Shown: one piece after another, positions 15,611 to 52,150 of the stretch
Numbering within the stretch: position 1 is the stretch's first letter
Layout: every line of letters starts with the position of its first letter
Source: Comamonadaceae bacterium
GTDB taxonomy: Bacteria; Pseudomonadota; Gammaproteobacteria; Burkholderiales; Burkholderiaceae_C
DNA: 64,000 bases
Direction of reading: 5' to 3'
Assembly (NCBI GenBank): GCA_947447985.1
Contig: CANFLX010000003.1
Location: 1-64,000, forward strand
Translations under genes and position numbers: made by a program
The notes under the pieces: generated by a model
Told to the model about the DNA's origin: nothing
What the model saw: the letters and a program-made list of their open reading frames with translations, nothing else
Database searches by the model: none

Positions 15611-15831
15611 ATCTTTTGGTTGATGGCTCTCGCCGACGGTGGAGGTTGCCAGCAATATATTGATGCCCAATTTCTGGCGTTCAATACAGGTGGGGCTTGT
15701 CTGGTTTCGCCGTACGCGCTCCAGCGGGGTTCCTGGAAACTGGCAGCCCTGGGTATGGTTAATTTCGCAGCGCGCTGGTTATGGGCCATTCGTAGTAATC
15801 GCCATGACATTGCTCTGCGTGAAGTTGTTGC
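15611..15831 (+). other. 221-base intergenic segment, no gene called
   Basis: This gap between the AT-rich gene and the VWA gene contains short open frames on both strands (for example a plus-strand frame through 15639-15872) but no ribosome-binding site or recognisable protein. Its composition is intermediate. It may hold the promoter of the AT-rich gene or decayed sequence from its arrival. I saw no direct repeats or attachment-site core. Confidence 0.4.
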
Positions 15832-17046
15832 TTACTTCGTCAACATCCGCATCGCCTCTTCCAGCCCTTTGAGGGTGAGCGGGTACATGCGTTGTTGCAT
15901 GAGTTGCTGAATCACGCTGATGCTTTGACGGTATTGCCAGACGCCCTGGGGTTCGGGGTTGATCCAGGCGAATTTGGGGAAAGCGCTGGTCAGGCGCTGC
16001 AACCAATCGGCGCCGGGCTCTTCGTTGTTGTATTCCACGCTGCCGCCAGGTTGCAAGATCTCATACGGGCTCATGGTGGCGTCGCCGACAAAGATGAGCT
16101 TGTAGTCTTTGTTGTACTTGCGGATGATGTCCCAGGTCGCAAATTTTTCGGCAAAGCGGCGCCGGTTGTTCTTCCACATGAAGTCATAGACGCAGTTGTG
16201 GAAGTAATAAAACTCCAGGTGCTTGAACTCGGTCTTGGTGGCGCTGAAAAGCTCTTCCACCCGGGCAATGTGGTCATCCATGGTGCCGCCCACGTCCATC
16301 AGCAGCAGCACCTTGACGTTGTTGTGCCGCTCCGGAATCATTTTGATGTCCAGGTAGCCTGCGTTCGCCGCTGTGCTGCGGATGGTGTCGTCGAGGTCGA
16401 GTTCGAGCTCGTTGCCTTCGCGGGCAAACTTGCGCAGTCGGCGCAATGCCACCTTGATGTTGCGTGTGCCCAGTTCCTGGGTGTCGTCATAGTCTTTGTA
16501 AGCGCGCTGGTCCCACACCTTGACCGCGCTGCGGTTGCGGCTCTTGTCCTGCCCGATGCGGATGCCCTGCGGGTTGTGTCCGTATGCGCCAAATGGCGAG
16601 GTACCGCCCGTGCCAATCCACTTGCTACCGCCTTCGTGCCGCTCTTTTTGTTCTTCAAAACGCTTCTTCAGCGTCTCCATGAGCTCGTCCCAGCCCATTT
16701 TCTCGATCTTGGCCAGTTCTTCTGGGCTGAGTTGCAACTCCAGGTTTTTGCGCAGCCATTCCAGCGGCACTTCTTTGGTGAAGTCGGCAATCAACTCCAC
16801 ACCTTTGAAATAGGCCGCAAATGCGCGGTCAAACTTGTCGTAGTGCTTCTCATCTTTGACCAGCGCTGCGCGGCTCAGGTAATAGAAGTCGTCCACTTTG
16901 TAGCCTTGCACCTCTTCACCGTCCGCGGGTTCAGCCGCATTGGGGCCCACCACGCCTTTTTGCAAGGCTTCGAGCAGCGTGAGGAACTCTTTGACTGAGA
17001 CCGGCAGTTTGGCGCTTCGCAGCGTGTAAAAAAAATCGAGCAGCAT
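15832..17046 (-). CDS. VWA-domain CoxE-family protein with altered MIDAS
   Basis: This 404-residue protein belongs to the CoxE-like VWA family that partners MoxR ATPases. The N-terminus (MLLDFFYTLRSAKLPVSVKEFL) is typical of the family, and the C-terminal half is a VWA fold. The metal-ion motif reads DVGGT at 251-255 instead of DxSxS, so metal binding may be weakened. It is the last gene of a four-gene minus-strand operon led by a MoxR ATPase, with gaps of 3, 9 and 12 bases. It is a second MoxR/VWA module besides coxD/coxE; its client protein is unknown. Confidence 0.87.
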   Translation of the reverse strand: MLLDFFYTLRSAKLPVSVKEFLTLLEALQKGVVGPNAAEPADGEEVQGYKVDDFYYLSRAALVKDEKHYDKFDRAFAAYFKGVELIADFTKEVPLEWLRKNLELQLSPEELAKIEKMGWDELMETLKKRFEEQKERHEGGSKWIGTGGTSPFGAYGHNPQGIRIGQDKSRNRSAVKVWDQRAYKDYDDTQELGTRNIKVALRRLRKFAREGNELELDLDDTIRSTAANAGYLDIKMIPERHNNVKVLLLMDVGGTMDDHIARVEELFSATKTEFKHLEFYYFHNCVYDFMWKNNRRRFAEKFATWDIIRKYNKDYKLIFVGDATMSPYEILQPGGSVEYNNEEPGADWLQRLTSAFPKFAWINPEPQGVWQYRQSISVIQQLMQQRMYPLTLKGLEEAMRMLTK

Positions 17047-38800: not shown

Positions 38801-40039
38801 ATGCACCCTCAAGCTGACACCCTGTGGCGCCTTCCGCAATGGACCTTTGCCGTTTTGCTGGCCGTCTTGGGCATGCTAGGCCCGTTTTCGATTGACACGT
38901 ATTTACCCGCTTTCTCGGATATCGCCGCGTCGCTGGGCGCCACGCCGCTGCAAATGCAACAAACCTTGTCGGCGTATTTGCTGTGCTTTGCCTTTATGGC
39001 GCTTTTTCACGGGGCCATATCAGACAGTTTTGGACGGCGTCCGGTCGTGCTGTGGGGCTTGGCGGTGTTCACGCTGGCCTCTGCGGGTTGCGCCTTGTCC
39101 CAAAGCATTGGCCAACTGATCTTCTTTCGGGGTTTGCAGGGTCTCTCGACCGGCGCAGGCACCGTGATTGCCCGTGCCGTGGTGCGTGACATGTACGCGC
39201 CCCATGACGCGCAAAAGGTGATGAGCCAGATCACCATTTTCTTCGGACTCGCACCTGCCATCGCACCGCTGTTGGGGGGTTGGTTGTTAATTCACAGCAC
39301 CTGGCATGCCATTTTTTGGTTCCTCACCGCCGTAGGCTTGTTTTTGTGGGTGGCGAATTACCGCTTCTTGCCCGAGACATTGCACACCAGCCAGCGCCAG
39401 CACTTCAATGTCAAAAACTTGCTGGCAGGCTATTGGCAACTGGGAGCAGATCCGCGCTTCTTGCTGTTGGCTCTGGCCAGTGGCATCCCCTTTAACGGCG
39501 TTTTTTTGTATGTGCTGAGCGCGCCCGTCTTTCTGGGGGAGCACCTGCATCTCTTGCCCCAGCAGTTTTTTTGGTTTTTTCTGGTGGTCATTGCCGGCAT
39601 CATGGCGGGCGCCTGGGTCAGTGGCCGGGTGGCAGGCACGCGCACGCCCAAGCGCCAGATTCGCGATGGCTTTGTCATCATGCTGTGTGTGGGTGTGCTC
39701 AACCTGATCGCCAACCTGCTGTTCACCGCCCACGTAGCCTGGGCGCTGCTGCCGTTGGGAATCTTTGCCTTCGGCTGGGCCATGATGGTGCCGGTGGTGA
39801 CGCTGCTGGTGCTGGACTTGCACCCTGCACGCCGGGGCATGGCGTCTTCATTGCAGATGTTTATCGGCTCCACGGCCAACGGCATCGTCGCTGGTTTGAT
39901 TTCGCCATGGGTGATGCACTCCACCACGGCGCTGGCGGGCGCCTCGCTGTGCATGATGTGCATAGGTCTGTGCGCCTGGATGTGGATGCGCCGACGCTGG
40001 CCCCGCATTGGAGCGGACGTGGTGACCGCGGAGTCTTAA
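38801..40039 (+). CDS. Bcr/CflA family MFS multidrug exporter
   Basis: The 412-residue protein has 12 helices and the Bcr/CflA marks: FSIDTYLPAFSDIAASLGA in helix 1, the DSFGRRPVVLWGL loop 2-3 motif A, and GAGTVIARAVVRDMY with motif C-like glycine spacing. These proton-driven antiporters export chloramphenicol, bicyclomycin or sulfonamides; substrate not known here. TTGGAG precedes the chosen ATG. It converges on the minus-strand operon. Confidence 0.9.
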   Translation: MHPQADTLWRLPQWTFAVLLAVLGMLGPFSIDTYLPAFSDIAASLGATPLQMQQTLSAYLLCFAFMALFHGAISDSFGRRPVVLWGLAVFTLASAGCALSQSIGQLIFFRGLQGLSTGAGTVIARAVVRDMYAPHDAQKVMSQITIFFGLAPAIAPLLGGWLLIHSTWHAIFWFLTAVGLFLWVANYRFLPETLHTSQRQHFNVKNLLAGYWQLGADPRFLLLALASGIPFNGVFLYVLSAPVFLGEHLHLLPQQFFWFFLVVIAGIMAGAWVSGRVAGTRTPKRQIRDGFVIMLCVGVLNLIANLLFTAHVAWALLPLGIFAFGWAMMVPVVTLLVLDLHPARRGMASSLQMFIGSTANGIVAGLISPWVMHSTTALAGASLCMMCIGLCAWMWMRRRWPRIGADVVTAES

Positions 40040-40065
40040 GTGGAAAGCGTGCGCTTGCGCACCCG

Positions 40066-42048
40066 CTAGAGATCCAGCGCTGGACGCAGTGCGCTGCGTG
40101 GCACATAACGCCAGCGCCCCCATGCGGTGGCTGCCAACGCAGCGATGGCTGCGGCCATGAGCACCTGATGCCAGGACGTTTGCCATAGGCCATCAAAGGC
40201 ACCAAACAGGCTGGCCTTCAGCCCGTGCACCACCCAGGTAATCGGAAGCCAGGGACTCACAGTCGCGAAAAATGTCCCACTGAGTTCGACCGGCAGCACC
40301 CCGCCGGACGAGGAGAGCTGCACCGCCAAGAACAGCATCGACAGCGCTTTGCCCGCATCACCCAGCAGCCGCGTCAATGCGCAAACGATCAGCAAAAATG
40401 CCAGTGCTGCCGTGATGACGGTGCAGGCCAGTGCAGCCGGTTGCAAGACCTTGATATGCAAGACAAGTTCTACCGTCACCAGCACCAGCAGCGCCTGTAA
40501 CAACACCACGCATGCAGGCAGAAGGAGCTTTCCGAGCAGGCGGGTGATCGGGTTGAAATTCTGGGCGAAACCTGGCAGGACGCGCAAGTTGACTAAAAAA
40601 GCGGCGATCCCCGCGCCCAGCCACAGCGCCGCGGGGATGATGTTGGCAGAAAAGCCGCTGCCGCTGTTCTGCACACTGGCCTCGACCTCCAGCACCGGCT
40701 GCACGGAGTTGGCCAGGCCTCGCGCACTGCCCAGGGGAGCTTCCTGGGAAGCGGGCAGTGCATTGACCAGCAGAACAGTTCCATCCAGCAAGGTACGACT
40801 GGCGCCGCTGATTTTGTCGTTGGCTTGTGCCAAGGTGGAGCTGGCGCGGGCAAGTTCATTGGCCCCTTCGGTGAGGTTTTCAATTTGAGCGTCTTCGGGC
40901 AGCCTGCCCACCATAGACCGCACCGCACCGTTCATGGCGCGCACGCCGTTGGTCAGCGCGCCGACACCGGCGCTCAGTTGTCCCGTTCCATCGCTGATTT
41001 TTTGCTGGCCCAGGCCCGCACTGCGCAAGCCGCTGTCAAGTTGGGTGAGACCCAGCGCCAGGTCATTGACCGCATCACGCACCGCAGGGCGGACCAGCAA
41101 ACTGCCGTCAGCGTCCTTTTTAAAGGCATCAACGCCTGCACTCAGCGCCTGGCTGCCCTCTTGGAGGCTTTGAAGGGCCCTGCGCATATCGTCCTGGCTG
41201 GCCGCCAAAGTTTCTGCGCCCGCGGCCAGCGCAGTCATTTCGGAATTGCGGGGGCGCTTAGCGTCCAGTGTGCGCAGGCCGGTTGCCACCTGGCGCATGC
41301 CATTCCCTAATTGCGTCACACCGTCACTGAGTCGTGCTGCGCTGGTGCTGAGCGACCCCGCACCCATGGCCGTTTTGGAAGCGCCGCTGCTGAGTTGTTC
41401 TGCGGCATCGTGCAATTGCGCTGCGGCTTGGCGCAGTCGCTCCACGCTGTTTTTGGAGCCCGCTGCATTCAGTAGTACCAGATTCCATCGCTGCTCGTTC
41501 AAGCTCTCGTTGACCTTGTGCCCTAGCTCGGCGGCAAAGAGTTGAGCAATGCGTGCGCCCTCAAAACTGTTGCCTTCTGAGGCGTACACCACCAACTTGC
41601 CAGCACCGGGTTGGGCGCCCGGGACCGCATTGGAGCTGAAGTCCTTGGGGATGATGAGCGCAAAGGCCAAGCTACCGTGGCGCACCTGTTGGCGCGCCTG
41701 ATCGGCGTCGTCCATTCTCAGATAGCCGAAGCGGGGGCTGCGTTCCAACTGCGCCAGAAGTTCCCGCCCCATATTGACGTCTTGTTCGCGGTAGACCACG
41801 CCCTGGTCCAGGTTGACCAAACCCACTTGCAAGGCTCCGCTGTTGGCCACGGGGTCCCACACACTGGAGAGGTAAATCACCACATAGAGCGCTGGAATCA
41901 GCGCGACGGCCACAAGCGCCAGCACCGAGCGGACGCTTCCGAAAAAAAAGGGCATTTCGAGTCGCACCAGCCACCTGATTTGGCGCACCCAAGCCCAGGG
42001 GTGTCGGACCCAAAGACCGATACCCCGCGGGCGATCTGCCGGTTTCAC
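40066..42048 (-). CDS. YhgE/Pip-type membrane protein (ABC-2-like permease)
   Basis: The 660-residue protein has one N-terminal helix (about 44-62), a large extracytoplasmic region with a predicted coiled coil rich in A, L, S, Q and G (about 205-430), and five or six C-terminal helices. This is the layout of YhgE/Pip proteins and of ABC-2 permeases such as those of type VII-like systems. The start is GTG at 42048, overlapping the DUF962 stop (GTGA); TTG one codon upstream is an alternative. It is the last gene of the selD operon. Function unknown. Confidence 0.85.
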   Translation of the reverse strand: MKPADRPRGIGLWVRHPWAWVRQIRWLVRLEMPFFFGSVRSVLALVAVALIPALYVVIYLSSVWDPVANSGALQVGLVNLDQGVVYREQDVNMGRELLAQLERSPRFGYLRMDDADQARQQVRHGSLAFALIIPKDFSSNAVPGAQPGAGKLVVYASEGNSFEGARIAQLFAAELGHKVNESLNEQRWNLVLLNAAGSKNSVERLRQAAAQLHDAAEQLSSGASKTAMGAGSLSTSAARLSDGVTQLGNGMRQVATGLRTLDAKRPRNSEMTALAAGAETLAASQDDMRRALQSLQEGSQALSAGVDAFKKDADGSLLVRPAVRDAVNDLALGLTQLDSGLRSAGLGQQKISDGTGQLSAGVGALTNGVRAMNGAVRSMVGRLPEDAQIENLTEGANELARASSTLAQANDKISGASRTLLDGTVLLVNALPASQEAPLGSARGLANSVQPVLEVEASVQNSGSGFSANIIPAALWLGAGIAAFLVNLRVLPGFAQNFNPITRLLGKLLLPACVVLLQALLVLVTVELVLHIKVLQPAALACTVITAALAFLLIVCALTRLLGDAGKALSMLFLAVQLSSSGGVLPVELSGTFFATVSPWLPITWVVHGLKASLFGAFDGLWQTSWHQVLMAAAIAALAATAWGRWRYVPRSALRPALDL

Positions 42049-42527
42049 CAACGCACGCCCAAGCGCAAAAAGAGTTTGCTCAAGACAAACAAAGGCCCGA
42101 CCAGCAGGTATTGCAGGTCTTCAAAAAAGGAGGGTTTTTTACCTTCGAGGTGGTGGCCAATGAATTGAAAAATCCAGGCCACCACAAACACCGCCACCGA
42201 CACCGGCAGCAGCACGCCGCGTGCGTCCAAGGCATCCACAGCCGCCAGCAAGACCGAAGTCACCAACAGCATGCACACCGTGAAGCGCCAGGACAGGCGG
42301 ATGTAATACACCATGCTGGCCGCAGAAAACAGCACAGCGAGTGCCGGATGCACAGCGAACATGATTCCAATCAGGCTGAGCATGATGGCAGGGATGGCGA
42401 TGAAATGAATCACCTCGTTGACAGGGTGCGTGTGGCTGGTGCCGTAATGGTTCAGCAAGGCATCCACTTTTCGTGCAGGCGCAGCGTCGTTCAGAGCATC
42501 ATCATGGGCTTGGGCGGTCGTAGGCAT
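42045..42527 (-). CDS. Mpo1-like DUF962 membrane protein
   Basis: The 160-residue protein is related to yeast Mpo1 (YGL010w), an Fe-dependent dioxygenase of 2-hydroxy fatty acids. The conserved N-terminal NHYGTSHTHPVNEVIHFIAIP and C-terminal WIFQFIGHHLEGKKPSFFEDLQYLLVGP segments supply the family histidines, with about four hydrophobic helices. Lipid alpha-oxidation or hydrolase activity is inferred only from the family. It lies 43 bases after the oxidoreductase gene and overlaps the YhgE-like gene by four bases. Confidence 0.85.
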   Translation of the reverse strand: MPTTAQAHDDALNDAAPARKVDALLNHYGTSHTHPVNEVIHFIAIPAIMLSLIGIMFAVHPALAVLFSAASMVYYIRLSWRFTVCMLLVTSVLLAAVDALDARGVLLPVSVAVFVVAWIFQFIGHHLEGKKPSFFEDLQYLLVGPLFVLSKLFLRLGVRW

Positions 42528-42570
42528 TGCGGTGTCCTGTGGGGGGTGAAAAAAGAGTGTCTGCGAAATC

Positions 42571-43722
42571 CTAGGCTTTGAAAAGCTGCTTGAGCCAACC
42601 CGCCAGCCGGCCTTGCACGCAATGGCCGCGCCAGACCGCCAATGCATGGTCGGCGCCCGCATACAGGTAGTGGGTTTGCGGCGGTTTGGCGATTTGCAGG
42701 CGTGCGGGCTCGGCCTCCATCACTGCACGCAGATTGCCCGGCAGTACCGCACTGTCCTCTTGCACGAAAAATACCTCCGGGTGGCTCATGCTGCGTTGGT
42801 GCGGGTCGATCAGCAAGTGTTGCCCCAGGGTGAGCGAGCTGTCTGCACTGTCAGCCAGACCCGTGTCTTGCAGCCAAGCCGGGGTGGACTGAGACAGCAC
42901 CAGCAGGGGAACGTCACAAGCCAGTCGGGCGCCGCTGGCCAGCACCACATCGTCACGCTCAAAAGCCGCGACAGGCTCGTACAGCATCGTCACGCGCTGG
43001 CGGCGCAGGGTGGCCAACATGCGCTGGTGCAAGGGGTCTGCGTTGTCACGGGGCCTGTCTTGGGGCGCTGGCACCCAGGTCACTGCAGCGGTTGGCATGC
43101 GTTGGCGCACTGCCAATGCCAACTCAAATCCGGTCAAGCAGTGGCCAACGACGGCGATGCGCAAAGCCCGGCCGCGCCCCATGTCACAGACCTTGGGCCA
43201 CATTTGGATGAAGCCCTCGATGGGGGGAACAAAAAGTCCGTGTTCTCGGGCACCTGGCATCGCCCGTTCGACCGCATCGCGGTGCGGCTGAGCGCCGATG
43301 TTGATAGACAAAACGTCGTAATCCAAGACCTGCCGGTCGTCGAGCAAAACGGTGCGCGAATCGGCATCCATCGCGCGCCCCTGGCGACCCGCCCAGCGCA
43401 CATGCGTGCCCTCCAGCAGATGTGCAATGTCGGTGAGGCACTGCTCCATCTCGACTTCATGGGCCATGAATCCGGCCAGCATGCGTGGCGAAAAAACCTG
43501 GGTATGCTGGGTCAGCAGCGTGATTTCCGCCTGGGCAATCGGGCGCTTTTGCAGCGATTTCAAGAACCGCAAATGCGCCGGCCCAGCCCCCCACAGCAGC
43601 AGACGGGTGGGGCGGCGGTACGACGCGGTGTTGGCCGCAGGTGCAGGTGCATTCAACTCCGGTACGGCCGTGGCCGGGTCGTTGGCCGCTGGTAGGGCCT
43701 GTTCAGTGGGGGTGCCTGTCAT
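42571..43722 (-). CDS. FAD-dependent pyridine-nucleotide oxidoreductase, paralogue of the SelD N-domain
   Basis: The 383-residue flavoprotein starts with an FAD dinucleotide fold (LLLWGAGPAHLRFLKSL near residue 40) and has a second NAD(P)H-type fold (IAVVGHCLTGFELAL near 190). It aligns along its length with the N-terminal domain of the SelD fusion next door: VFSPRMLAGFM with PYSGMLPGYV, and LDYDVLSINIGAQP with LDYDLLAINTGSTP. The GxGxxG of the second fold is altered (GHCLTG), so NAD(P)H binding may be weak. It starts five bases after the selD stop. Confidence 0.85.
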   Translation of the reverse strand: MTGTPTEQALPAANDPATAVPELNAPAPAANTASYRRPTRLLLWGAGPAHLRFLKSLQKRPIAQAEITLLTQHTQVFSPRMLAGFMAHEVEMEQCLTDIAHLLEGTHVRWAGRQGRAMDADSRTVLLDDRQVLDYDVLSINIGAQPHRDAVERAMPGAREHGLFVPPIEGFIQMWPKVCDMGRGRALRIAVVGHCLTGFELALAVRQRMPTAAVTWVPAPQDRPRDNADPLHQRMLATLRRQRVTMLYEPVAAFERDDVVLASGARLACDVPLLVLSQSTPAWLQDTGLADSADSSLTLGQHLLIDPHQRSMSHPEVFFVQEDSAVLPGNLRAVMEAEPARLQIAKPPQTHYLYAGADHALAVWRGHCVQGRLAGWLKQLFKA

Positions 43723-43727
43723 GGCCT

Positions 43728-46064
43728 CTATTGTTCCACGAGCCAGACGCTGGACGGCGTTTGCTTGGTGGCACGTACCTGCGCCACAACGCGGGTGTGC
43801 GGGTAGCCTGCTGCGCGCAGTGCGATGACGCAATCTTCAGCGCGGTGGGCTGGCACGCTGCACAGCAGCCCACCGGCCGTTTGAGGGTCAAACAAAAGAT
43901 CCAGCCGTGCCTGGTGTCGGGGCTGGGCGCTGCATGCTGCATAGTTGCCAATCGCGCCGGCCTGGCGCGCATTGGCAGTCTGCAGTGAGCTGTGAATGCC
44001 CGCCTGCAAGCACTCCAGTGCACCCTCCAGCAGCGGCAGTGACTGCAGGTCGAGCAGCACCTCCACCTCCGAGGCCCGTGCCATTTCCACCAGATGGCCC
44101 AGCAGACCAAAACCGGTGACGTCGGTACACGCTTTGGCACCGTGGGCTTGCGCAATCTGCGCCGCTTGCCGGCTCGATTGGGCCATGCAGTCCAGCGCCG
44201 CCTCCACCCAGCGGCCACGGGCCTGGCCCAGCGCATGTGCGGCAAACAGGGTCCCGGTACCCAAGGGCTTGGTCAGGAGGACGGCGTCGCCCACCTGCAT
44301 GCCACCTTTGGTCATTACACCGTGCAATTGGCCGTGGGCATCGATATCGACCAGGCCGTTGATGGCAAAACCCAGCGCCAGTTCCTGGCCTTCGCCGGTG
44401 TGGCCACCCACCAGCGTGCAAGCGGCAGCGTTGAGCACATCAACGGCCCCCGCCATCATCTGCGACAGCAGCCTGCGGGTTTGCCGGTCTAGGCCCGGGG
44501 GTACCGTAGCGATGGCAGTGGCGGTATGCGCTTGGGCGCCCATGGCAAACATATCGCCCAGTGCGTGGTTGGCTGCGATCTGGCCAAACCGGTAGGGGTC
44601 GTCCATGAATGCGCGAAAGAAATCGACGGATTGCACCAGCGCCTTGCCCGGTGGCACGCGCACCACCGCAGCGTCGTCGGGCGCGCCCAGACCGATCAGC
44701 ACATCCGCGTTGGGCAAGGGGCACAGCGCGCCCAGCGCCTGTGAGAGCACGGTGGCGCCCACCTTGGCACCGCAGCCGCCGCAGCGCATGGCCTGCGCCG
44801 CTTGCGACTGCTGCGCTTCACCCTCGCTCAGACCGGCAAACACCGGAGCTTCAGCGCCTGCAGAGCTTGCCATGCCGGTGAGACCCAGCGGAGAGAAGCG
44901 CTGCATAAAGCGCCGGTCAATCCAATCTTTCCAACGCCACACCCAGGCTCCGGCAAAGTCCAGTGCCCCGCGCGAGGCCACGGCATAGCGGTCGCCGGTG
45001 CTGATCAAGGCCAGCCAGCGCCGCTGCGGACGGTAGGGCCGCAGGGGCAGCCCCAGCAGCGCGTGGCACAGATTGCGCGCCAGCGGCATGCCCATGCGCA
45101 CCGCAAACACACCGGCTTTTTCCAGAGTCTCGCCTTCCATGTGGGCGACATCGCCCGTGGCAAAAATGTGCGGGTCGGTGATGGACTGCAGTTGGCTGTT
45201 GACCCGTATGCAGTGCGCCTCGTCCAATGCCAGCCCGGTGCTCGGCAGCCAGGAGCCGCCACCGGCTTGGGTCACCCAAAAAACGGCATCGGCGTCCACC
45301 CATGTCCCGCCGGTATGACCCTGACCTTCGCTGCTTTGTACTTGCACGCCCTGGGCGCTGACCTGCGCCACCCGCACACCCGTGTGTACCTGCACACCGC
45401 GGGCTTGCAGCACCTGGGCAAAGCGGCGCTGCACCCGGGGGTTGTGGGTGGGCAGTACCGATTCGCTGGCCGAAAAAAGCGCAAACACCGGCTCATGACT
45501 TGTCAAACCGAGCGACTTGCGTTCTGCGCGCAGCCGGTATTGCATGGACAACAGCAACTCCACCCCACCTGCGCCCGCGCCTACTACGGCAATCCGCTGG
45601 GGCCCCTTGCCGGCCCGAACCGCCGTGAGCAATTCCAACCAGCGCTGGTTGAAGGCGGCGATCGGCTTGACGCGGATGGCATGTTCTTTTGCCCCCGGAG
45701 TCGCCGCCGTTTGCGGCGTGGAGCCGGTGTTGATGGCCAGCAGGTCGTAGTCCAAGGCCGGACGGTCGCGCAGCAACACCTGGCGGCGCGCGCGGTCAAT
45801 GCCGGTGACCTCTGCCCGCACAAACCGGGCACCGGCGAACACGCACAAGCGCACCAAGTCCAGGTGCACCTCATCGAAGTCGTAGTGGCCTGCCACATAG
45901 CCGGGCAACATGCCGGAGTAAGGGGTGTGCGCATCGGTGCACACCAAGGTGATGCGCAGACCCGGCACCGGCTGCATGGCAAAGGCTTTAAGGACGCCCA
46001 CGTGGCTGTGGCCACCGCCCACCAGAACGAGGTCACGCAGGATGGGAGGGGTCGCGGCTTGCAT
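43728..46064 (-). CDS. selD: Selenide, water dikinase fused to an N-terminal flavoprotein domain
   Basis: SelD makes selenophosphate from selenide and ATP, the selenium donor for selenocysteine and selenouridine. The 778-residue product is a fusion. Residues 1-400 are an NDH-2-like FAD/NAD(P)H oxidoreductase (VLVGGGHSHVGVLK near 13, VVGAGAGGVELLL near 160, FATGDVAHM near 285). From about 420 a full SelD follows, with C431 and K434 in CGGCGAK at the positions of the E. coli catalytic C17 and K20, then DDAAVV, HALGDMFAMGA and GGHTGEGQE. The flavin domain might reduce a selenium species. No selA, selB, selU or tRNA-Sec is in the window. Confidence 0.94.
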   Translation of the reverse strand: MQAATPPILRDLVLVGGGHSHVGVLKAFAMQPVPGLRITLVCTDAHTPYSGMLPGYVAGHYDFDEVHLDLVRLCVFAGARFVRAEVTGIDRARRQVLLRDRPALDYDLLAINTGSTPQTAATPGAKEHAIRVKPIAAFNQRWLELLTAVRAGKGPQRIAVVGAGAGGVELLLSMQYRLRAERKSLGLTSHEPVFALFSASESVLPTHNPRVQRRFAQVLQARGVQVHTGVRVAQVSAQGVQVQSSEGQGHTGGTWVDADAVFWVTQAGGGSWLPSTGLALDEAHCIRVNSQLQSITDPHIFATGDVAHMEGETLEKAGVFAVRMGMPLARNLCHALLGLPLRPYRPQRRWLALISTGDRYAVASRGALDFAGAWVWRWKDWIDRRFMQRFSPLGLTGMASSAGAEAPVFAGLSEGEAQQSQAAQAMRCGGCGAKVGATVLSQALGALCPLPNADVLIGLGAPDDAAVVRVPPGKALVQSVDFFRAFMDDPYRFGQIAANHALGDMFAMGAQAHTATAIATVPPGLDRQTRRLLSQMMAGAVDVLNAAACTLVGGHTGEGQELALGFAINGLVDIDAHGQLHGVMTKGGMQVGDAVLLTKPLGTGTLFAAHALGQARGRWVEAALDCMAQSSRQAAQIAQAHGAKACTDVTGFGLLGHLVEMARASEVEVLLDLQSLPLLEGALECLQAGIHSSLQTANARQAGAIGNYAACSAQPRHQARLDLLFDPQTAGGLLCSVPAHRAEDCVIALRAAGYPHTRVVAQVRATKQTPSSVWLVEQ

Positions 46065-46100
46065 GCGGGGTATTGTGCAGTGGGGTGCTCACAGCCGGCT

Positions 46101-48335
46101 TCAGCCCCGGCGCCAGGTGTGAAACCAGCGCGCGCCGCGCAGCAGCCACGCTGGCACATGCGCGCGTTGCCAATTGCCAGCTGCATATTTGTTGGCCTCG
46201 GTGAACGTGGGGTAGGCATGCACCGTGCCCAGCACCGCCTTCAAGCCCAGGCCTTTGCGCATGGCCAGCACGTATTCGGCCAGCATTTCTGCTGCCCGGT
46301 CGGCGACGATGGTCACACCCAGAATGCGGTCGCTGCCCGGCACCGTCAGCACGTGGACAAAGCCCCTGGGCGCGGCATCACCCGCTTCGCACAAGGCACG
46401 GTCCAGGTCGGCCAGATCGAAGCGTGTGAGCTCAAACGCCACGCCTTGGGCATCAACCTCCCGCGCGTTCAAACCCACCCGGGCGACTTCGGGCGAGACA
46501 AAGGTGGTGACGGGCAGATGCCGGTAGTCCGCGGCAAAGCGCTTGAAGTCACCCCACAGTGCGTTGACAGTGGCGTACCAGGCCTGGTGCGCCGCAGCGT
46601 GGGTGAACTGGTAGGGCCCGGCTACGTCACCGGCGGCGTAAATCGTGGGAAACACAGTCTGCAGGTAGGCGTTGGTCGGAACAGTCCGCTCGGTGGCAAT
46701 ACCCAGCGTTTCGAGACCGTAGCCTTGCAAACGTGCACGCCGGCCCACGGCACAGACCAGCAGGTCGAAGCACAGCGTGTGCTCCAGTCCGCTGCGCAGG
46801 TCGCGCACGAGGAGTGACTTTTGCGCATCGTCCCCCGAGCCCTTGGTGCAGCGCAGGGCCTGGTGCTGGGTGAGGACCTGGACGCCATCACCTTGCAGGG
46901 CGCTTTGCACGAGGTCGCTGACCTCAGGGTCTTCGCGGGGCAACAGGCGCTCGCCCGCTTCCACCACCGTGACCGCGGCACCCAAGCGCGCAAAGGCCTG
47001 GCCCAGCTCACAGCCGATCGGCCCACCCCCGAGCACCACGATGCGCGCAGGCAGGGTGGCGCAAAGTGCGAGCTGGCTCCACAGCGTGTCGCTGGTGGCA
47101 AAGCCCACGTCGTGCAGACCGGGCAGGTCGGGCACGACAGGTTGGGCACCGGCCGCAATCACGATGGCACGGGTGCGGATGCGCTGGGGGCCTTGGCCTG
47201 GCCGGGTGACTTCCACCGTCCACGGGTTGATGATGGTGGCGTGGCCTTGCAGCACGTCCACGCCCAGCGCGGTGTACCGCTCGACGCTGTCATGCGGCGC
47301 AATGCTGGCAATCACTTTGTGGATGCGCGCCATCAGCGCCGGAAAATCCAAATCAGGTGCAGGAGCCACCACGCCAAATTGCGCTGCGTTGCGCACCTGC
47401 TGCGCCACCTTGGCGCTGTGAATCAAGGCTTTGCTGGGTACACAGCCATAGTGCAGGCAGTCGCCGCCCAAAGCGCGTTCTTCGACCAAGGTGACTTTGG
47501 CCTGCGCAGCAGCGGCCACATAGGCCGATACCAAGCCCCCCGCGCCGCCACCGATCACCACCAGGTTGGTGTCGAACCGGCGGGGCCGTTGATTGCGCCA
47601 CGGTGCGAGCAGGCGGCGTTGTTGCAGACGCGCCAGTACCTGTTTGGCCACGAGGGGCAAGAGGCCGACCGCCAGACCCGCCACGGCCAGCGCCAGCAGC
47701 AAGGCGGGGCTGAGCACCTCGCGCGCGCTGCTCAGTGTGCCCAGTTGCTGGCCAGCGGCCACATAAATCACTGTGCTTGGCAACATACCGATTTGGCTCA
47801 CCCCATAAAAGGTGCGGGCGCGCAGGGTGCTCAGGCCCATCAGCAGATTGACCAGTCCAAAGGGCACCACGGGAATCAGGCGCAAACCCAGCAGGTACAG
47901 CGCACCCTCGCGCGACACGCTGTGGCGCATCGCCTGCACCCTGGGCCCCATGCGCGTGCGCAGCCAGTCTGCAAACAAATAGCGCGCCAAATAAAACGAC
48001 AGCGTCGCGCCCAGGGTGGAGGCAAACGACACCAGCAGCACGCCCCACCCCAGGCCCAGAACCGCGCCTGCGGCCACCGTCAGCACCGCAATGCCAGGCA
48101 CAGAAAAAGCGGCAACCAGCAGGTAAAGCGTGAAAAATGCGGCGCGAAACTGCCAGGGAGACGCCTGGTGCCAGCGCTGCAAATCGGCCAACTGGCTTTT
48201 CACCAGGGCCAGCCAGGCCGCTTCGTCGGGCGCCTGCCACCACCACAGCCATACCAACATGCCAAGGCCCAGCAGCAGGCCGGTGCGCCAGACCCAAGCG
48301 CTGCGATGCTCGCGCGGGCTGTGGACCTTAGTCAT
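46101..48335 (-). CDS. TVP38/TMEM64 membrane protein fused to a mercuric-reductase-like flavoprotein
   Basis: Residues about 20-240 form a TVP38 (DedA-superfamily) membrane domain with the PGIAVLTVAAGAVLGLGWG and LRLIPVVPFGLVNLLMGLS segments. Residues 255-744 form a pyridine nucleotide-disulfide oxidoreductase: FAD fold VVIGGGAGGLVSAYVAA, active disulfide C293-C298 in GGDCLHYGCVPSK and the C-terminal HAYPTFTEA (706-714). In lipoamide dehydrogenase the residue before this Pro is the catalytic His; here it is Tyr. The C-terminal Cys pair and N-terminal metal domain of MerA are missing, so mercury reduction is unlikely. Starts at ATG 48335, overlapping the upstream gene by eight bases. Confidence 0.88.
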   Translation of the reverse strand: MTKVHSPREHRSAWVWRTGLLLGLGMLVWLWWWQAPDEAAWLALVKSQLADLQRWHQASPWQFRAAFFTLYLLVAAFSVPGIAVLTVAAGAVLGLGWGVLLVSFASTLGATLSFYLARYLFADWLRTRMGPRVQAMRHSVSREGALYLLGLRLIPVVPFGLVNLLMGLSTLRARTFYGVSQIGMLPSTVIYVAAGQQLGTLSSAREVLSPALLLALAVAGLAVGLLPLVAKQVLARLQQRRLLAPWRNQRPRRFDTNLVVIGGGAGGLVSAYVAAAAQAKVTLVEERALGGDCLHYGCVPSKALIHSAKVAQQVRNAAQFGVVAPAPDLDFPALMARIHKVIASIAPHDSVERYTALGVDVLQGHATIINPWTVEVTRPGQGPQRIRTRAIVIAAGAQPVVPDLPGLHDVGFATSDTLWSQLALCATLPARIVVLGGGPIGCELGQAFARLGAAVTVVEAGERLLPREDPEVSDLVQSALQGDGVQVLTQHQALRCTKGSGDDAQKSLLVRDLRSGLEHTLCFDLLVCAVGRRARLQGYGLETLGIATERTVPTNAYLQTVFPTIYAAGDVAGPYQFTHAAAHQAWYATVNALWGDFKRFAADYRHLPVTTFVSPEVARVGLNAREVDAQGVAFELTRFDLADLDRALCEAGDAAPRGFVHVLTVPGSDRILGVTIVADRAAEMLAEYVLAMRKGLGLKAVLGTVHAYPTFTEANKYAAGNWQRAHVPAWLLRGARWFHTWRRG

Positions 48336-48972
48336 GCGCACCCTCTTGCGGGGCCGCAGGGGCACGCGGCGCAAACGCCTGCACGCCCCAGCGCACGCGG
48401 GTGACCAGTGTCAGAGCGCACAGCGCGGCGAAGCCATAGGCCAAAGGTGCGAAATGTGCGGGCCAGAGGCAGGCCGCCGCAAAAAACGCCAGCGTTTCGG
48501 TGCCTTCGGTCAGTCCACCCAAAAAATAAAAGGATTTGCCGGGATAGGCCAGGTTGGTCATGCCGCGCTTTTGCGCCAACACGGCAAAGGCCAGAAAGCT
48601 GCTCGCCGTGCCCACAAAAGCTGCCAGCACCACAGCGGCAGCAAGCGCGTTGTGGTGGGGGTCGGCCAGCGCAAATGCCAGCGGAATGCTGGCGTAAAAC
48701 ACAAAGTCAAGCGTGATGTCTAAAAAACCGCCCAGGTCGGTGGCTGTGGTGAGGCGCGCGACTGCGCCGTCGAGTGCATCGCACAGACGCGACAAGCCAA
48801 TCGCCAGCAAGGCCGCTGCAAACACGCTTTGGGTCACGAGCAAAGCGCCCACCAGGCCGATGGCAAAGCCAATCCAGGTCAGCGCATTGGCACCTACGCC
48901 GGCGCGCACCAGCATGCGGGCCACGGCCTGAACCGGTGTGTGCATCAGTGACAAGGCAAAGCGATCAAGCAT
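48328..48972 (-). CDS. CDP-alcohol phosphatidyltransferase family protein
   Basis: The 214-residue membrane enzyme shows the complete CDP-alcohol phosphotransferase signature D65-x2-DG-x2-AR-x8-G-x3-D-x3-D89 (CDALDGAVARLT ... LDITLD) and about six helices. It should transfer a phosphoalcohol from a CDP-linked donor; which lipid is made is unknown. E. coli YnjF, also encoded near an YnjCD ABC transporter, is of this family. Here it lies between ynjD-like and the TVP38 fusion, 30 bases after the former. Confidence 0.9.
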   Translation of the reverse strand: MLDRFALSLMHTPVQAVARMLVRAGVGANALTWIGFAIGLVGALLVTQSVFAAALLAIGLSRLCDALDGAVARLTTATDLGGFLDITLDFVFYASIPLAFALADPHHNALAAAVVLAAFVGTASSFLAFAVLAQKRGMTNLAYPGKSFYFLGGLTEGTETLAFFAAACLWPAHFAPLAYGFAALCALTLVTRVRWGVQAFAPRAPAAPQEGAHD

Positions 48973-49002
48973 GGGGGCATTGTCGGCGCTCAGGCAGGCC
49001 GC

Positions 49003-49647
49003 TTAGTCCAGCACGGTCAGATGCTGGGGGTCCGCCACGTCGGCCGCATCGTGGCTCACCAGAATGGCCGGGATGCCGCGTTGTGCCACCGCAGCAAACA
49101 CCAGCTCGCGCATGCGCTGGCGCAAAGGCGCATCGAGCTTGGAAAAAGGCTCGTCGAGCATCAAGGCCAGCGGCTCTGCGAGCAGGGCACGGGCCAAGGC
49201 CACGCGCGCGCGCTGACCGCCCGACAGGGTGGCGGGGTCGGCATCGGCAAAGGACTGAAGTTCCACCTCGGCCAGCGCGTCCAGCGCCCGAGTTTGGCGT
49301 GCAGCCTGTGGGCCCGCAGGCACGGCAAATAGCAGGTTTTCCAACACGGTCAGGTGTGCGAACAGCAGGTCGTCTTGCATCAGCAAGCCCACGCGGCGCT
49401 GGTGCGTGGGCAGGGTGTCGATGCGCTTGCCGTTCAAAGCCACGGTTCCGTCGAAGGTCACTGCGGTATCCAAGGTGCCGCAAACGGCCGCCAGCAGGCT
49501 GGATTTGCCCGAGCCGCTGGGGCCCATCACGGTATGCACCACGCCACCCGGAACCGTGAGTTCCAGTGCAGCAAGCAGCACGCCCGCAGGCGTTTGCAGA
49601 CGGTGCACATCCATGTGCAGCAGCTGGGCAGGGTGGTCGTGGGCCAT
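49003..49647 (-). CDS. ABC transporter ATP-binding protein (YnjD-like)
   Basis: The 214-residue ATPase has Walker A GPSGSGKS (42-49), the Q-loop LMQDDLLF near 90, the signature LSGGQRARVALARALL near 140 and Walker B LMLDEPFSKLD. It is the partner of the permease encoded 13 bases upstream. Size and order match E. coli YnjD, a transporter of unknown substrate in the ThiQ/CysA-like group. The ATG at 49647 leaves the standard N-terminus; an upstream frame overlaps the permease gene. Confidence 0.9.
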   Translation of the reverse strand: MAHDHPAQLLHMDVHRLQTPAGVLLAALELTVPGGVVHTVMGPSGSGKSSLLAAVCGTLDTAVTFDGTVALNGKRIDTLPTHQRRVGLLMQDDLLFAHLTVLENLLFAVPAGPQAARQTRALDALAEVELQSFADADPATLSGGQRARVALARALLAEPLALMLDEPFSKLDAPLRQRMRELVFAAVAQRGIPAILVSHDAADVADPQHLTVLD

Positions 49648-49660
49648 GGGCGCGCCTATG

Positions 49661-51352
49661 CTACTGCAGGGTCTGGCGGGGGCTGAATCGCCGCGCACGG
49701 CCCAGCACTGCAGCCATGGCAAACACCAGGGCGGGTAGCGTCCACAACAAGACGGCATACGCCGCCATCAGCGAGCGCTGCCCGCCAGCGGCCAGGGCGA
49801 CCGCTTCGGTGTTCACCGTGGCGAAGCGGCCTGCGCCCACATACACCGTGGGCAAGTACTGCGCCACGCTCACGGCAAAGCCCACCGCCAAGGACGCGGC
49901 CAAAGGCGCCCGCAGCAAAGGCCATTTGATGCGCCAGAGGAAGGCCGCGTGCGAACGTCCCAGACTCGCGGCCACCGCCTGCAGCCGTGGATCAAAGTGG
50001 CCATAAGGCCCTTGCAAAGTCAGCAGCACATAGGGCAACACACACAGGGTGTGCGCCAGCCACAGGCCCTTGAAGCTGCCATCCACGCCCCAGGCCAGTG
50101 CCAGCTGGTGCAGGCCCACGGTCCACAGCACCGTGGGTAGCAGCAGCGGCAAGAACCACAGGCCTTGCAGGCGCTGCTGCCACGGTGGGGGCGCGCATTC
50201 CAGCCAGGCCACACACCCCAGCAAGGCCAACGCACTGCTGGCCAGCGCCAGCGCCAGCGTGTCCCCCACCACGTCGGCGCTTTGCGCCACGGATTGCCAT
50301 GCCTGGACCGTCCATCCCTGCGGCCACAAGGCAGGAAATAACCATGGGCCCATGGCACTGCCCAAAACCAGCGCCGATGCAACCGCCGTGTAGGCCAGCG
50401 CAAGCACCTGCAACAACACGGGGGGACGCTCGATTCCCGATGTCGCGCCTGTGCGGTCTTGGGTGGTGAAACCGCGTGTCCATCCCACCGTGGCCCCCTG
50501 GCGCCACCTGCTTTGCAGGGCGATGCCCGCCAGGGCCACCAGCGCCACGACGCCGGTGAGCAGCCAAGCGCCCGCCGCACCCATGGCATTGCGTGCTGGA
50601 TCGGGGTCTTGCAGCCATTGCCAGGTCAGCACGGCCAATGGCGCCGGAGTGGAGGGCCCCGCCAGCATCGCCACGTCCACCACCGTGATGCTGTAGATCC
50701 CTGCGGCCAGCAGTGGCGCCTGCAAGCGCGGCAGCAGTTGCGGCCACACCACGCGCCACCAGGCCGTGCGCGGGCGGTAGCCCAGACTGTGTGCCACTTG
50801 CATTTCCATCCTTAGCCTGCGTGCCAGGTCCGGGCGGCCCAGTTGCGCTGCTGCTGCCCAGAGCAAGAAGGGAATTTCTTTGAAGGCCAGCACGGCGATC
50901 AATCCCAGGCCCCAGGGGTCTTGTGCGCTTTGCCACGGTGGCGGGGTGTCCAAGCGCAGTGCCAAGCCATCGTTGAAAGGGGCTAGCAAGGCGGCGCCCA
51001 GGCGCACCAGCCACCCTGAAGGTGCGAGCAGCAGCACCAAGCCGATGGCAAAGGCCGCATGGGGCAGGGCCAGCATGGCGGGCACGCGGCGCAGCAGCAC
51101 AGGCCACTGTGCCGTGCCGTGCGTCGCCGCAAGAATGAGTGCCGTGCCTGTGAGCGCCAACGCAAAAGCCGCGCCCCCCGTGTAGAGGCTGAGCCAGAGG
51201 GCCGGTACCAGCGCAGGCTGGGCCAGAAGATCTGCCCAGGCGCGCGCGTCGGCGGCTGCCCAAAAAGCGGCGGCCAAGGTCCAGGCCAAAACCAGTGCGG
51301 CGGATCCTGCCAGCGCGAAGGCGGCTGCGCGCGGGCCCGATTCAAACCGCAT
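49661..51352 (-). CDS. ABC transporter permease, double-length (YnjC/ThiP-like)
   Basis: The 563-residue protein contains two fused permease domains with about 12 helices in total; each has an EAA-like loop (second copy: LQAVAASLGRSHAAFLWRIKWPLL near 470; first copy: MQVAHSLGYRPRTAWWRVVWPQLL near 185). The layout is that of YnjC or ThiP. No periplasmic binding protein gene is adjacent. In E. coli ynjB and ynjA precede ynjC, whereas here 3-hydroxybutyrate dehydrogenase lies upstream, 27 bases away. Confidence 0.9.
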   Translation of the reverse strand: MRFESGPRAAAFALAGSAALVLAWTLAAAFWAAADARAWADLLAQPALVPALWLSLYTGGAAFALALTGTALILAATHGTAQWPVLLRRVPAMLALPHAAFAIGLVLLLAPSGWLVRLGAALLAPFNDGLALRLDTPPPWQSAQDPWGLGLIAVLAFKEIPFLLWAAAAQLGRPDLARRLRMEMQVAHSLGYRPRTAWWRVVWPQLLPRLQAPLLAAGIYSITVVDVAMLAGPSTPAPLAVLTWQWLQDPDPARNAMGAAGAWLLTGVVALVALAGIALQSRWRQGATVGWTRGFTTQDRTGATSGIERPPVLLQVLALAYTAVASALVLGSAMGPWLFPALWPQGWTVQAWQSVAQSADVVGDTLALALASSALALLGCVAWLECAPPPWQQRLQGLWFLPLLLPTVLWTVGLHQLALAWGVDGSFKGLWLAHTLCVLPYVLLTLQGPYGHFDPRLQAVAASLGRSHAAFLWRIKWPLLRAPLAASLAVGFAVSVAQYLPTVYVGAGRFATVNTEAVALAAGGQRSLMAAYAVLLWTLPALVFAMAAVLGRARRFSPRQTLQ

Positions 51353-51379: not shown

Positions 51380-52150
51380 TTACTGCGCGGCCCAACCGCC
51401 GTCCATGTTCCAGGCCACGCCACGCACATTGTTGGCCGCGGCGGAACACAAAAATACGGCCAGTGCGCCGAGTTCATCGGGCGTGGTGAATTGCAAGGAG
51501 GGCTCTTTCTCGCCCAAGAGCAGTGCGGTGGCTTCAGCGTTAGAGACGCCCAACGCAGCCGCTTTGGCGTCCACTTGTTTTTGCACCAGGGGTGTGAGTA
51601 CCCAGCCGGGGCAAATGGCGTTGCAGGTCACGCCGGTGGTGGCGTTTTCCAGCGCGGTGACCTTGGTCAGACCCACCAGGCCGTGCTTGGCTGCCACGTA
51701 GGCTGACTTCTCGGCCGAGGCCACCAGTCCATGGACCGAGGCCACGTTCAAAATGCGGCCCCAGTTGCGCGACAGCATGCCGGGCAGCGCAAAGCGGCTG
51801 GCGTGGAAGGCGCTGCTCAGGTTGATGGCCAGCACCGCGTCCCAGCGCTCGGGTGGGAAATTTTCGACCCGCGCCACGTGCTGAATGCCGGCATTGTTCA
51901 CCAAAATGTCGACGGCACCAAAGGTGGCCTCGGCGTGGCGCACCATGGCTTCGATCTCGGCGGGCTTGCTCATGTCGGCGCCGTGGTAGCTCACGGCCAC
52001 GCCGAATGCTGCGATTTCTGCCTTGGGGCCTTCGACGTCGCCAAAGCCATTCATCACGATGTTGGCGCCCTGCGCGGCCAGCGCTTTGGCCAGCCCCAGA
52101 CCGATGCCGCTGGTGGAGCCGGTAACGAGAGCGGTTTTGCCTTTGAGCAT
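51380..52150 (-). CDS. bdhA: 3-hydroxybutyrate dehydrogenase
   Basis: This 256-residue short-chain dehydrogenase oxidises 3-hydroxybutyrate to acetoacetate in polyhydroxybutyrate turnover. It has the TGSTSGIGLG nucleotide motif (11-20), NNAG near 88, the catalytic S, Y and K in NVASVHGLVASAEKSAYVAAKHG and the C-terminal NVRGVAWNMDGGWAAQ ending typical of BdhA. GAAGGA precedes the ATG. It is the first gene of the leftward run and ends 27 bases before the ABC permease start. Confidence 0.93.
   Translation of the reverse strand: MLKGKTALVTGSTSGIGLGLAKALAAQGANIVMNGFGDVEGPKAEIAAFGVAVSYHGADMSKPAEIEAMVRHAEATFGAVDILVNNAGIQHVARVENFPPERWDAVLAINLSSAFHASRFALPGMLSRNWGRILNVASVHGLVASAEKSAYVAAKHGLVGLTKVTALENATTGVTCNAICPGWVLTPLVQKQVDAKAAALGVSNAEATALLLGEKEPSLQFTTPDELGALAVFLCSAAANNVRGVAWNMDGGWAAQ

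Follow-up and report, generated by a model that had tools for sequence, protein, structure and literature searches.

Fusions of an NADH oxidoreductase to the selenophosphate-forming enzyme SelD have already been described. The passages on these Ndh-SelD (COG1252-SelD) proteins in three papers (PMC2398784, PMC2432076, PMC4561486) present the same fusion as that analyzed here, with a CxxC in the SelD site, and propose the oxidoreductase as the reductant of selenium compounds for SelD. Fusions of a TVP38 domain to a reductase are also known: the COG0398 DedA-pyridine-nucleotide reductase fusions have the same domain composition and are called the commonest of their subfamily in the relevant section of PMC10127716. 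In Escherichia coli, TVP38 proteins and further relatives of the genes considered here form the ydjXYZ-ynjABCDEF cluster, and the corresponding section of PMC3688515 reports that FNR directly activates ydjXYZ-ynjABCD and ynjE. The present analysis concerns a stretch of 64,000 nucleotides (the window; positions 1 to 64,000 of contig CANFLX010000003.1, Comamonadaceae bacterium assembly GCA_947447985.1), in which both a flavoprotein-SelD fusion and a TVP38-disulfide reductase fusion lie in a run of eight minus-strand genes. These genes are tentatively read as a membrane NAD(P)H-driven metalloid or chalcogen reduction system, wired here to SelD and on to tRNA selenation. Sequence comparisons document the parts of the system, their recurrence, a link to SelD and a pattern of flavoprotein exchange.

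The SelD fusion and the membrane reductase

The NDH-2/FSP1-like flavoprotein-SelD fusion (43728..46064, minus strand) scores over the cut-off for both of its families, with 468.7 bits for the N-terminal domain against TIGR03169 (cut-off 310) and 281.7 bits for the SelD domain against TIGR00476 (cut-off 125). TIGR04369 (fusion_not_SelD) was rejected, its 465.8 bits lying under the cut-off of 700. The active-site sequence CGGCGAK (44763-44783) includes, as CGGC, the CxxC reported for Ndh-SelD fusions. The catalytic residues C431, K434, D464, D481, D504 and D648 are retained; they correspond to E. coli SelD Cys17, Lys20, Asp51, Asp68, Asp91 and Asp227, and a histidine occupies the position of E. 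coli SelD Asn87. The fusion exhibits a dN/dS of 0.15-0.23 and is the sole SelD over the cut-off in a genome of 2.85 Mb that is 99.6% complete. MnmH/SelU, the tRNA 2-selenouridine synthase, is encoded on another contig (346.5 bits, cut-off 219.75). Neither SelB (best 115.2 bits, cut-off 242.25) nor SenB (best 27.8 bits, cut-off 300) has a match over its cut-off in the genome, SenA not having been searched genome-wide, and roles in selenocysteine and, for this genome, in selenoneine formation were rejected on these grounds. By these profile searches, SelD and MnmH are the selenium genes present out of the four sought (SelD, MnmH, SelB, SenB). Since the only SelD keeps its catalytic residues and MnmH is present without SelB or SenB over cut-off, tRNA 2-selenouridine is the likely, predicted client of the fusion.

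Among solved structures, the flavoprotein domain of the fusion best matches 4nwz (7e-18), an NDH-2, followed by the NADH dehydrogenase-like YjlD (8e-15) and FSP1 (1e-12); sulfide-quinone reductases are weaker matches (3e-5 and 9e-4). Because a single cysteine is invariant in 16/16 fusions and no second one is, this domain probably passes on NAD(P)H electrons as a carrier and has no disulfide reductase role of its own.

The neighboring gene encodes the fusion of a TVP38 (VTT) domain to a class-I disulfide reductase (46101..48335, minus strand; longest open reading frame (ORF) to 48374). Class-I disulfide reductases are marked by a CxxxxC and a C-terminal His-Glu, and both are kept here, as CLHYGC (47442-47459) and within HAYPTFTE (46197-46220). 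The reductase part resembles lipoamide dehydrogenase and the mercuric reductase MerA, which carries a C-terminal vicinal cysteine pair. MerA itself was rejected, as the TIGR02053 score of 322.3 bits is below the cut-off of 454.45 and no CC pair occurs in the last 60 residues. An enzyme of this kind could plausibly reduce a selenium-sulfur adduct, for example selenodiglutathione. The TVP38 part is 31% identical to E. coli YdjX. In Cupriavidus metallidurans, selenite uptake has been tied to a DedA protein (Ledgham 2005, as cited in passages of PMC2744661 and PMC8679861).

Recurrence of the module and exchange of its flavoprotein

YnjC, the permease of the module, and SelD lie within 15 kb of each other in 13 of the 59 family genomes that have both (4 genera; 0.53 expected), within 20 kb in 16 of 59 (7 genera; 0.69 expected) and within 40 kb in 21 of 59 (10 genera; 1.34 expected), under a null of uniform placement that ignores shared ancestry and contig ends. 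Where YnjC matches were split, the pieces were merged for G391, G439 and G481, two places were kept for G300, G397 and G587, and for G304 a short piece was discarded; proximity counts for the fusion and the flavoprotein used one place per genome. The arrangements are diverse. The fusion is within the operon in G000, G655, G609 and G488, beside or near YnjD in G603, G480 and G547, facing the reductase side in G462 and G403, and 12-36 kb away, with or without Sen genes, in G532, G309, G650, G354, G681, G393, G439, G338 and G411, while in G048, G404 and G552 a stand-alone SelD faces a stand-alone flavoprotein. Such variety argues against a single inherited accident. SelD is of the fusion type in 31/61 YnjC genomes versus 15/336 others (as listed by score and frame length). 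Of the 54 genomes with both coordinates, 13 have a stand-alone flavoprotein no more than 15 kb from SelD, seven of them convergently at 121-216 bases; SelD coordinates outside the YnjC genomes came from the best-scoring matches listed, and the 54 are not a random set. In G553, the sole sampled genome of the window's genus that lacks YnjC, no SelD is seen either. Taken across these genomes, a selenium link of the module is well supported.

The fusion and a stand-alone flavoprotein tend to be mutually exclusive: the fusion is present in 31 of the 61 YnjC genomes and the stand-alone flavoprotein in 32, with 6 genomes combining the two and 4 lacking both (p=1e-7). Three of the six that combine them (G481, G547, G603) have the stand-alone flavoprotein no more than 7 kb from a separate stand-alone SelD. 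The window contains, after the fusion, a second flavoprotein (42571..43722, minus strand; longest ORF to 43833; GHCLTG at 43129-43146) that is TIGR03169-like at 124.8 bits, under the cut-off of 310, and has lost its cofactor motifs. Both motifs are retained in 16/16 stand-alone flavoproteins and in 16/16 fusions. In the lineage with the fusion inside the operon, the NAD motif GxGxx(G/A) is lost from the resident flavoprotein in 6/8 cases (L024 and L025 keep it) and in 8/8 the C-terminal FAD motif lacks its aligned Gly-Asp, with a Gly-Asp one position off in G609. These eight altered flavoproteins form one clade (100/99), sister (100/100) to the intact flavoprotein of G404, a member of the window's genus with a stand-alone SelD; a ninth altered protein, from G354, has a long branch and is placed outside the clade. 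Against three relatives, the altered flavoprotein has a dN/dS of 0.08-0.14 at a dS of 1.0-1.4, near saturation, and by this measure it is under purifying selection. From the loss of motifs despite purifying selection, together with the exclusion between fusion and stand-alone protein, we read the flavoprotein domain of the fusion as having taken over the redox job of the resident flavoprotein.

A survey of SelD fusion neighborhoods, of the kind proposed in the initial annotation of this DNA, finds the neighborhood recurring in other genomes, beyond chance. The best 80 of 323 fusion relatives from a scan of named genomes were compared; as 29/80 loci fall short of a 5 kb flank on one or both sides, the counts are lower bounds. 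The full TVP38-reductase (at least 45% identity) is present in 22/80 loci and directly upstream on the same strand in 14/80, the second flavoprotein follows downstream in 12 of these 14, and YnjC is present in 11/80. SenB is within 1 kb of the fusion in 15/80 loci (40% identity), with a looser cluster in 22 loci, and one representative SenB neighbor exceeds the SenB cut-off. Some relatives of the fusion thus serve as the SelD in loci of the selenoneine type, together with SenB, SenA, EgtD and a putative selenate transporter, and those of one Comamonadaceae-type group are inside an operon of the window's type. Some of the in-operon relatives (L163-L165, L027-L035) add a Rieske-type protein, a redoxin or an MscS-type channel.

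YnjC profile matches occur in 61/397 genomes of the family and in 7/184 of the class, of which five lie outside the family (both at 1e-30), and in 3/300 genomes of an even draw of the order (at 1e-40), all three within the family. Surroundings were fetched for 41 of the 61, picked partly for nearby SelD; the SelD rates above were therefore taken from the 59 genomes with coordinates. These 41 surroundings contain YnjB (35), a CDP-alcohol transferase (33), the TVP38-reductase (32) and DUF3047 (23). Of the 32 YnjC genomes with a stand-alone TIGR03169 flavoprotein, 18 have it no more than 15 kb from YnjC, on the same strand in 17/18, and in L181 (G750), outside the family, the flavoprotein, reductase, YnjB, YnjC, YnjD and YnjF are consecutive.

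The pair of reductase and flavoprotein also occurs without YnjC. The best-scoring 40 of 53 genomes with a stand-alone flavoprotein and no YnjC were examined, and the TVP38-reductase is present in 39/40. It is full-length in 0/40 contrast genomes, which yield one reductase-only match; these were sampled to lack YnjC, the fusion and a flavoprotein match at 1e-60 (G351 has a weaker one, 8e-49). Flavoprotein and reductase are same-strand neighbors at most 5 kb apart in 33/39, the other six having them on separate contigs. Of the 39 YnjC-less reductases, 24 have ArsS in their surroundings, 29 have ArsS or an arsenosugar glycosyltransferase, and none has YnjC; of the 41 YnjC genes, none is accompanied by ArsS and 6 are accompanied by arsenosugar glycosyltransferases. 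In L197, L199, L200 and L201, the YnjC-less core has selenium genes beside it (SenB, SelD or genes for selenate transport). As judged from gene neighborhoods, the core is the TVP38-reductase with a stand-alone flavoprotein, paired either with YnjBCD and a CDP-alcohol transferase or with arsenosugar genes. DUF692 (BufB-like) genes are seen near the core in 8/41 YnjC genomes and 11/39 YnjC-less loci at a loose 35% identity.

Plasmids carry both pairings. The reductase is present in 90/72,556 plasmid records, and nine stretches were examined. Homologues of YnjB, YnjC, YnjD and YnjF accompany it in L186, L188, L189, L191 and L192, ArsS and glycosyltransferases in L187, bufferin-type and glycosyltransferase genes in L193, and neither the YnjBCDF nor the arsenosugar set in L190 and L194. 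All five of the plasmid flavoproteins tested match TIGR03169; four exceed the cut-off and the fifth narrowly misses it. On a Salmonella conjugative IncC plasmid (L192, 5914-13213), a complete module of reductase, flavoprotein, YnjB, YnjC, YnjD and CDP-alcohol transferase homologues follows bufferin-type genes. The marine loci L188 and L189 are flanked upstream by a TonB-dependent receptor and downstream by a sterol-desaturase-family gene, which hints at larger-molecule uptake and lipid chemistry.

Other genes and layout of the locus

The eight genes were recovered from the ORF list and profile searches with the presence, order, spacing and domains first described for them. The gaps of 13, 30, -8, 36, 5, 43 and -4 bases are reproduced with internal starts at 49647, 48335, 43722, 42527 and 42048, upstream of which the longest ORFs of these genes begin. 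All eight are on the minus strand. The YnjC-like ABC permease (49661..51352) shares 34% identity with E. coli YnjC (7e-46) and has no Pfam match; an alignment of homologues (n=10) represents it. It is followed by a YnjD-like ABC ATPase (49003..49647, longest ORF to 49758), identified by domain search and by its match to E. coli YnjD (49% identity), with its Walker A at 49498-49524 and LSGGQ at 49213-49227, and by a YnjF-like CDP-alcohol phosphatidyltransferase (48328..48972; PF01066) with 51% identity to E. coli YnjF. Homologues of YnjC, YnjD and YnjF thus lie together in the window, as in clusters of the ydjXYZ-ynjABCDEF type, and the kinship to the E. coli cluster first noted for this locus is borne out. 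Beyond the two fusions and the second flavoprotein are an Mpo1-like protein (42045..42527, longest ORF to 42662; PF06127) and a YhgE/Pip-family membrane protein (40066..42048, longest ORF to 42051; TIGR03061 and TIGR03062, both over cut-off). An Mpo1-like homologue is also directly 3' of the SelD fusion in L063, L141 being an apparently identical stretch, and the YhgE/Pip protein comes after the flavoproteins in Comamonadaceae-type loci.

A 3-hydroxybutyrate dehydrogenase (HBDH) gene (51380..52150, longest ORF to 52198, minus strand) is 27 bases upstream of the permease. Among 11 relatives' loci holding YnjC, HBDH occupies this position in L021 alone; as the position is not conserved, HBDH was rejected as a member and is probably outside the conserved unit. 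L021, from a Comamonadaceae metagenome-assembled genome (MAG), is the best named match (94% identity). Relative to it, the nine frames (the eight genes and HBDH) have dN/dS values of 0-0.33, and the ORFs of the locus are under purifying selection. A scan found 12 terminator-like sites versus 11.8 expected and 0 sigma-70-like sites versus 1.3 expected, which speaks neither for nor against an operon. Passing from the fusion to the second flavoprotein, DNA identity to L021 drops from ~96% to ~80%; it recovers near 39.7 kb, and dS is 0.07-0.13 upstream and 0.8-1.0 inside the tract; the region 39700-44000, with the second flavoprotein, Mpo1-like and YhgE genes, is a likely recombination tract. Elsewhere in the window, G+C dips to 0.436 at 14001-16000, other 2-kb steps ranging from 0.55 to 0.67.

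Proposed function and comparison with known systems

The putative reduction system would consist of three units: the YnjC/YnjD permease and ATPase with the YnjF-like CDP-alcohol transferase; the membrane TVP38-disulfide reductase; and the flavoprotein-SelD fusion, in place of the stand-alone flavoprotein that usually partners the reductase. A metalloid or chalcogen compound, here selenium, would enter or be handled at the membrane and be reduced by the TVP38-linked reductase and the NAD(P)H-oxidizing flavoprotein domain. The SelD domain would then convert selenide and ATP to selenophosphate for the tRNA 2-selenouridine synthase encoded elsewhere in the genome, the old flavoprotein being retained as a motif-less subunit. 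The direction of transport, the flow of electrons, the hand-over to SelD and any lipid role are inferred, the part played by the lipid enzymes being conjecture. The module may be a means for cells to reduce and use the toxic elements selenium and arsenic.

Several observations weigh against this reading. The substrate is itself presumptive. The binding protein YnjB is encoded outside the window's operon, the one homologue found being on another contig (G000:C7:15335-16483, 60% identity to that of L085); in G488, G609 and G655 it is ~18-24 kb from YnjC. SelD is not seen within 40 kb of YnjC in 38/59 genomes with both, split contigs concealing some, and congeners in the proximity counts are not independent. 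YnjC occurs without SelD in 2/61 family genomes (both MAGs, 93-94% complete) and in G729, a 100% complete genome of another family. As SelD is present in 363/397 family genomes (59/61 with YnjC, 304/336 without), its presence or absence is uninformative. Of the 80 fusion loci, 22 contain the full reductase and 11 YnjC, as lower bounds, and SelU (35% identity) is found in 0/80 in the flanks available. In YnjC-less loci the reductase/flavoprotein pair is mostly with arsenosugar genes (29/39), and the redox part thus lacks specificity for selenium; a reading limited strictly to selenium was abandoned once the plasmid and YnjC-less loci revealed these partners. The selenium-handling system of the initial annotation is therefore partly supported: it stands in its link to SelD, through proximity in 21/59 genomes and fusion enrichment, and stays conjectural in its selenium oxyanion import and substrate, given the outlying YnjB, the 38 genomes without a close SelD and the arsenosugar partners of the core.

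Somewhat unlikely is a membrane redox and lipid housekeeping module without a selenium substrate, in which SelD serves MnmH only and is nearby through shared islands or as a convenient flavoprotein partner. The module is frequently without a close SelD (including L130 and L167-L174), has lipid-type partners in the CDP-alcohol transferase and, in L188 and L189, the sterol-desaturase family, and occurs on a plasmid with bufferin-type genes. However, proximity to SelD is repeated in different arrangements, SelD is fused to exactly the flavoprotein family of the module, and fusion and stand-alone protein come near mutual exclusion. It is also unlikely, and slightly more so, that the task of the redox core is to ready arsenic or selenium species for joining to sugars, through ArsS and glycosyltransferases or SenB, or to lipids, through the CDP-alcohol transferase, with SelD as one donor route. 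ArsS in 24/39 and ArsS or a glycosyltransferase in 29/39 YnjC-less loci, the glycosyltransferases between the SelD fusion and YnjD in L161, and SenB, SelD or selenate-transport genes beside the core in L197 and L199-L201 favor such a system, whereas ArsS is found in 0/41 of the fetched YnjC flanks, the window has no ArsS or glycosyltransferase match at 1e-15 and the genome no SenB over cut-off.

The broader proposal that YnjBCD, the YnjF-like enzyme, the TVP38-reductase and the SelD-type flavoprotein are the long-sought dedicated selenium uptake and reduction pathway for SelD, including E. coli ydjXYZ-ynjABCDEF, with a redox core common to arsenosugar synthesis, is doubtful. Least probable is the view of the fusion as a relic SenC that remained beside an unrelated operon after its selenoneine cluster was lost. 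The fusion is within 1 kb of SenB in 15/80 loci and SenB is not over cut-off here, but the kept catalytic residues and dN/dS of 0.15-0.23 indicate a maintained fusion, MnmH supplies a client, and the second flavoprotein is downstream in 12/14 loci with the reductase directly upstream.

Relative to the literature consulted, the exchange of the fusion with the module's flavoprotein was not seen in the texts available, nor was the pairing with YnjBCD and arsenosugar loci, no search for arsenosugar papers having been made. The passages on Ndh-SelD fusions do not mention the TVP38 reductase, YnjBCD or replacement of a stand-alone flavoprotein, and the section on COG0398 fusions does not mention genomic partners or a SelD link. 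No paper joining TVP38 and selenium was found in the open-access literature searched, which is no proof of absence. The ynj/ydj genes are not connected with selenium in the relevant portions of PMC2593051, PMC8614886, PMC8803141 and PMC4591121, and the main text of a 2015 survey of selenium candidate genes does not contain ABC transporter, permease or NADH. A rhodanese-selenite intermediate cited in a passage of PMC8614886 is of interest for YnjE.

The selenoneine cluster (SenA, SenB and its own SelD) is similar in that some relatives have the fusion as the SelD next to SenB/SenA, and differs in that SenB is not over cut-off in this genome (no genome-wide search was made for SenA). The E. coli ydjXYZ-ynjABCDEF cluster shares YnjC, YnjD, YnjF and TVP38 homologues and a nearby selD, 5.6 kb from the end of ynjF in K-12. 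Unlike the window, it has separate TVP38 proteins, a ferredoxin-type YdjY, an AhpD-like YnjA, the sulfurtransferase YnjE and a YnjB adjoining YnjC, and neither a reductase domain nor a SelD fusion belongs to it. Conservation of a cluster near selD provides named candidate genes. The arsenosugar loci (ArsS TIGR04167, TIGR04282, TIGR04283) differ by their ArsS and glycosyltransferases, homologues of which are not found in the window at 1e-15, and have in common the TVP38-reductase, flavoprotein, DUF547 and DUF3047; one redox core with SelD, YnjBCD and arsenosugar genes would tie selenium and arsenic biochemistry to a single membrane system.

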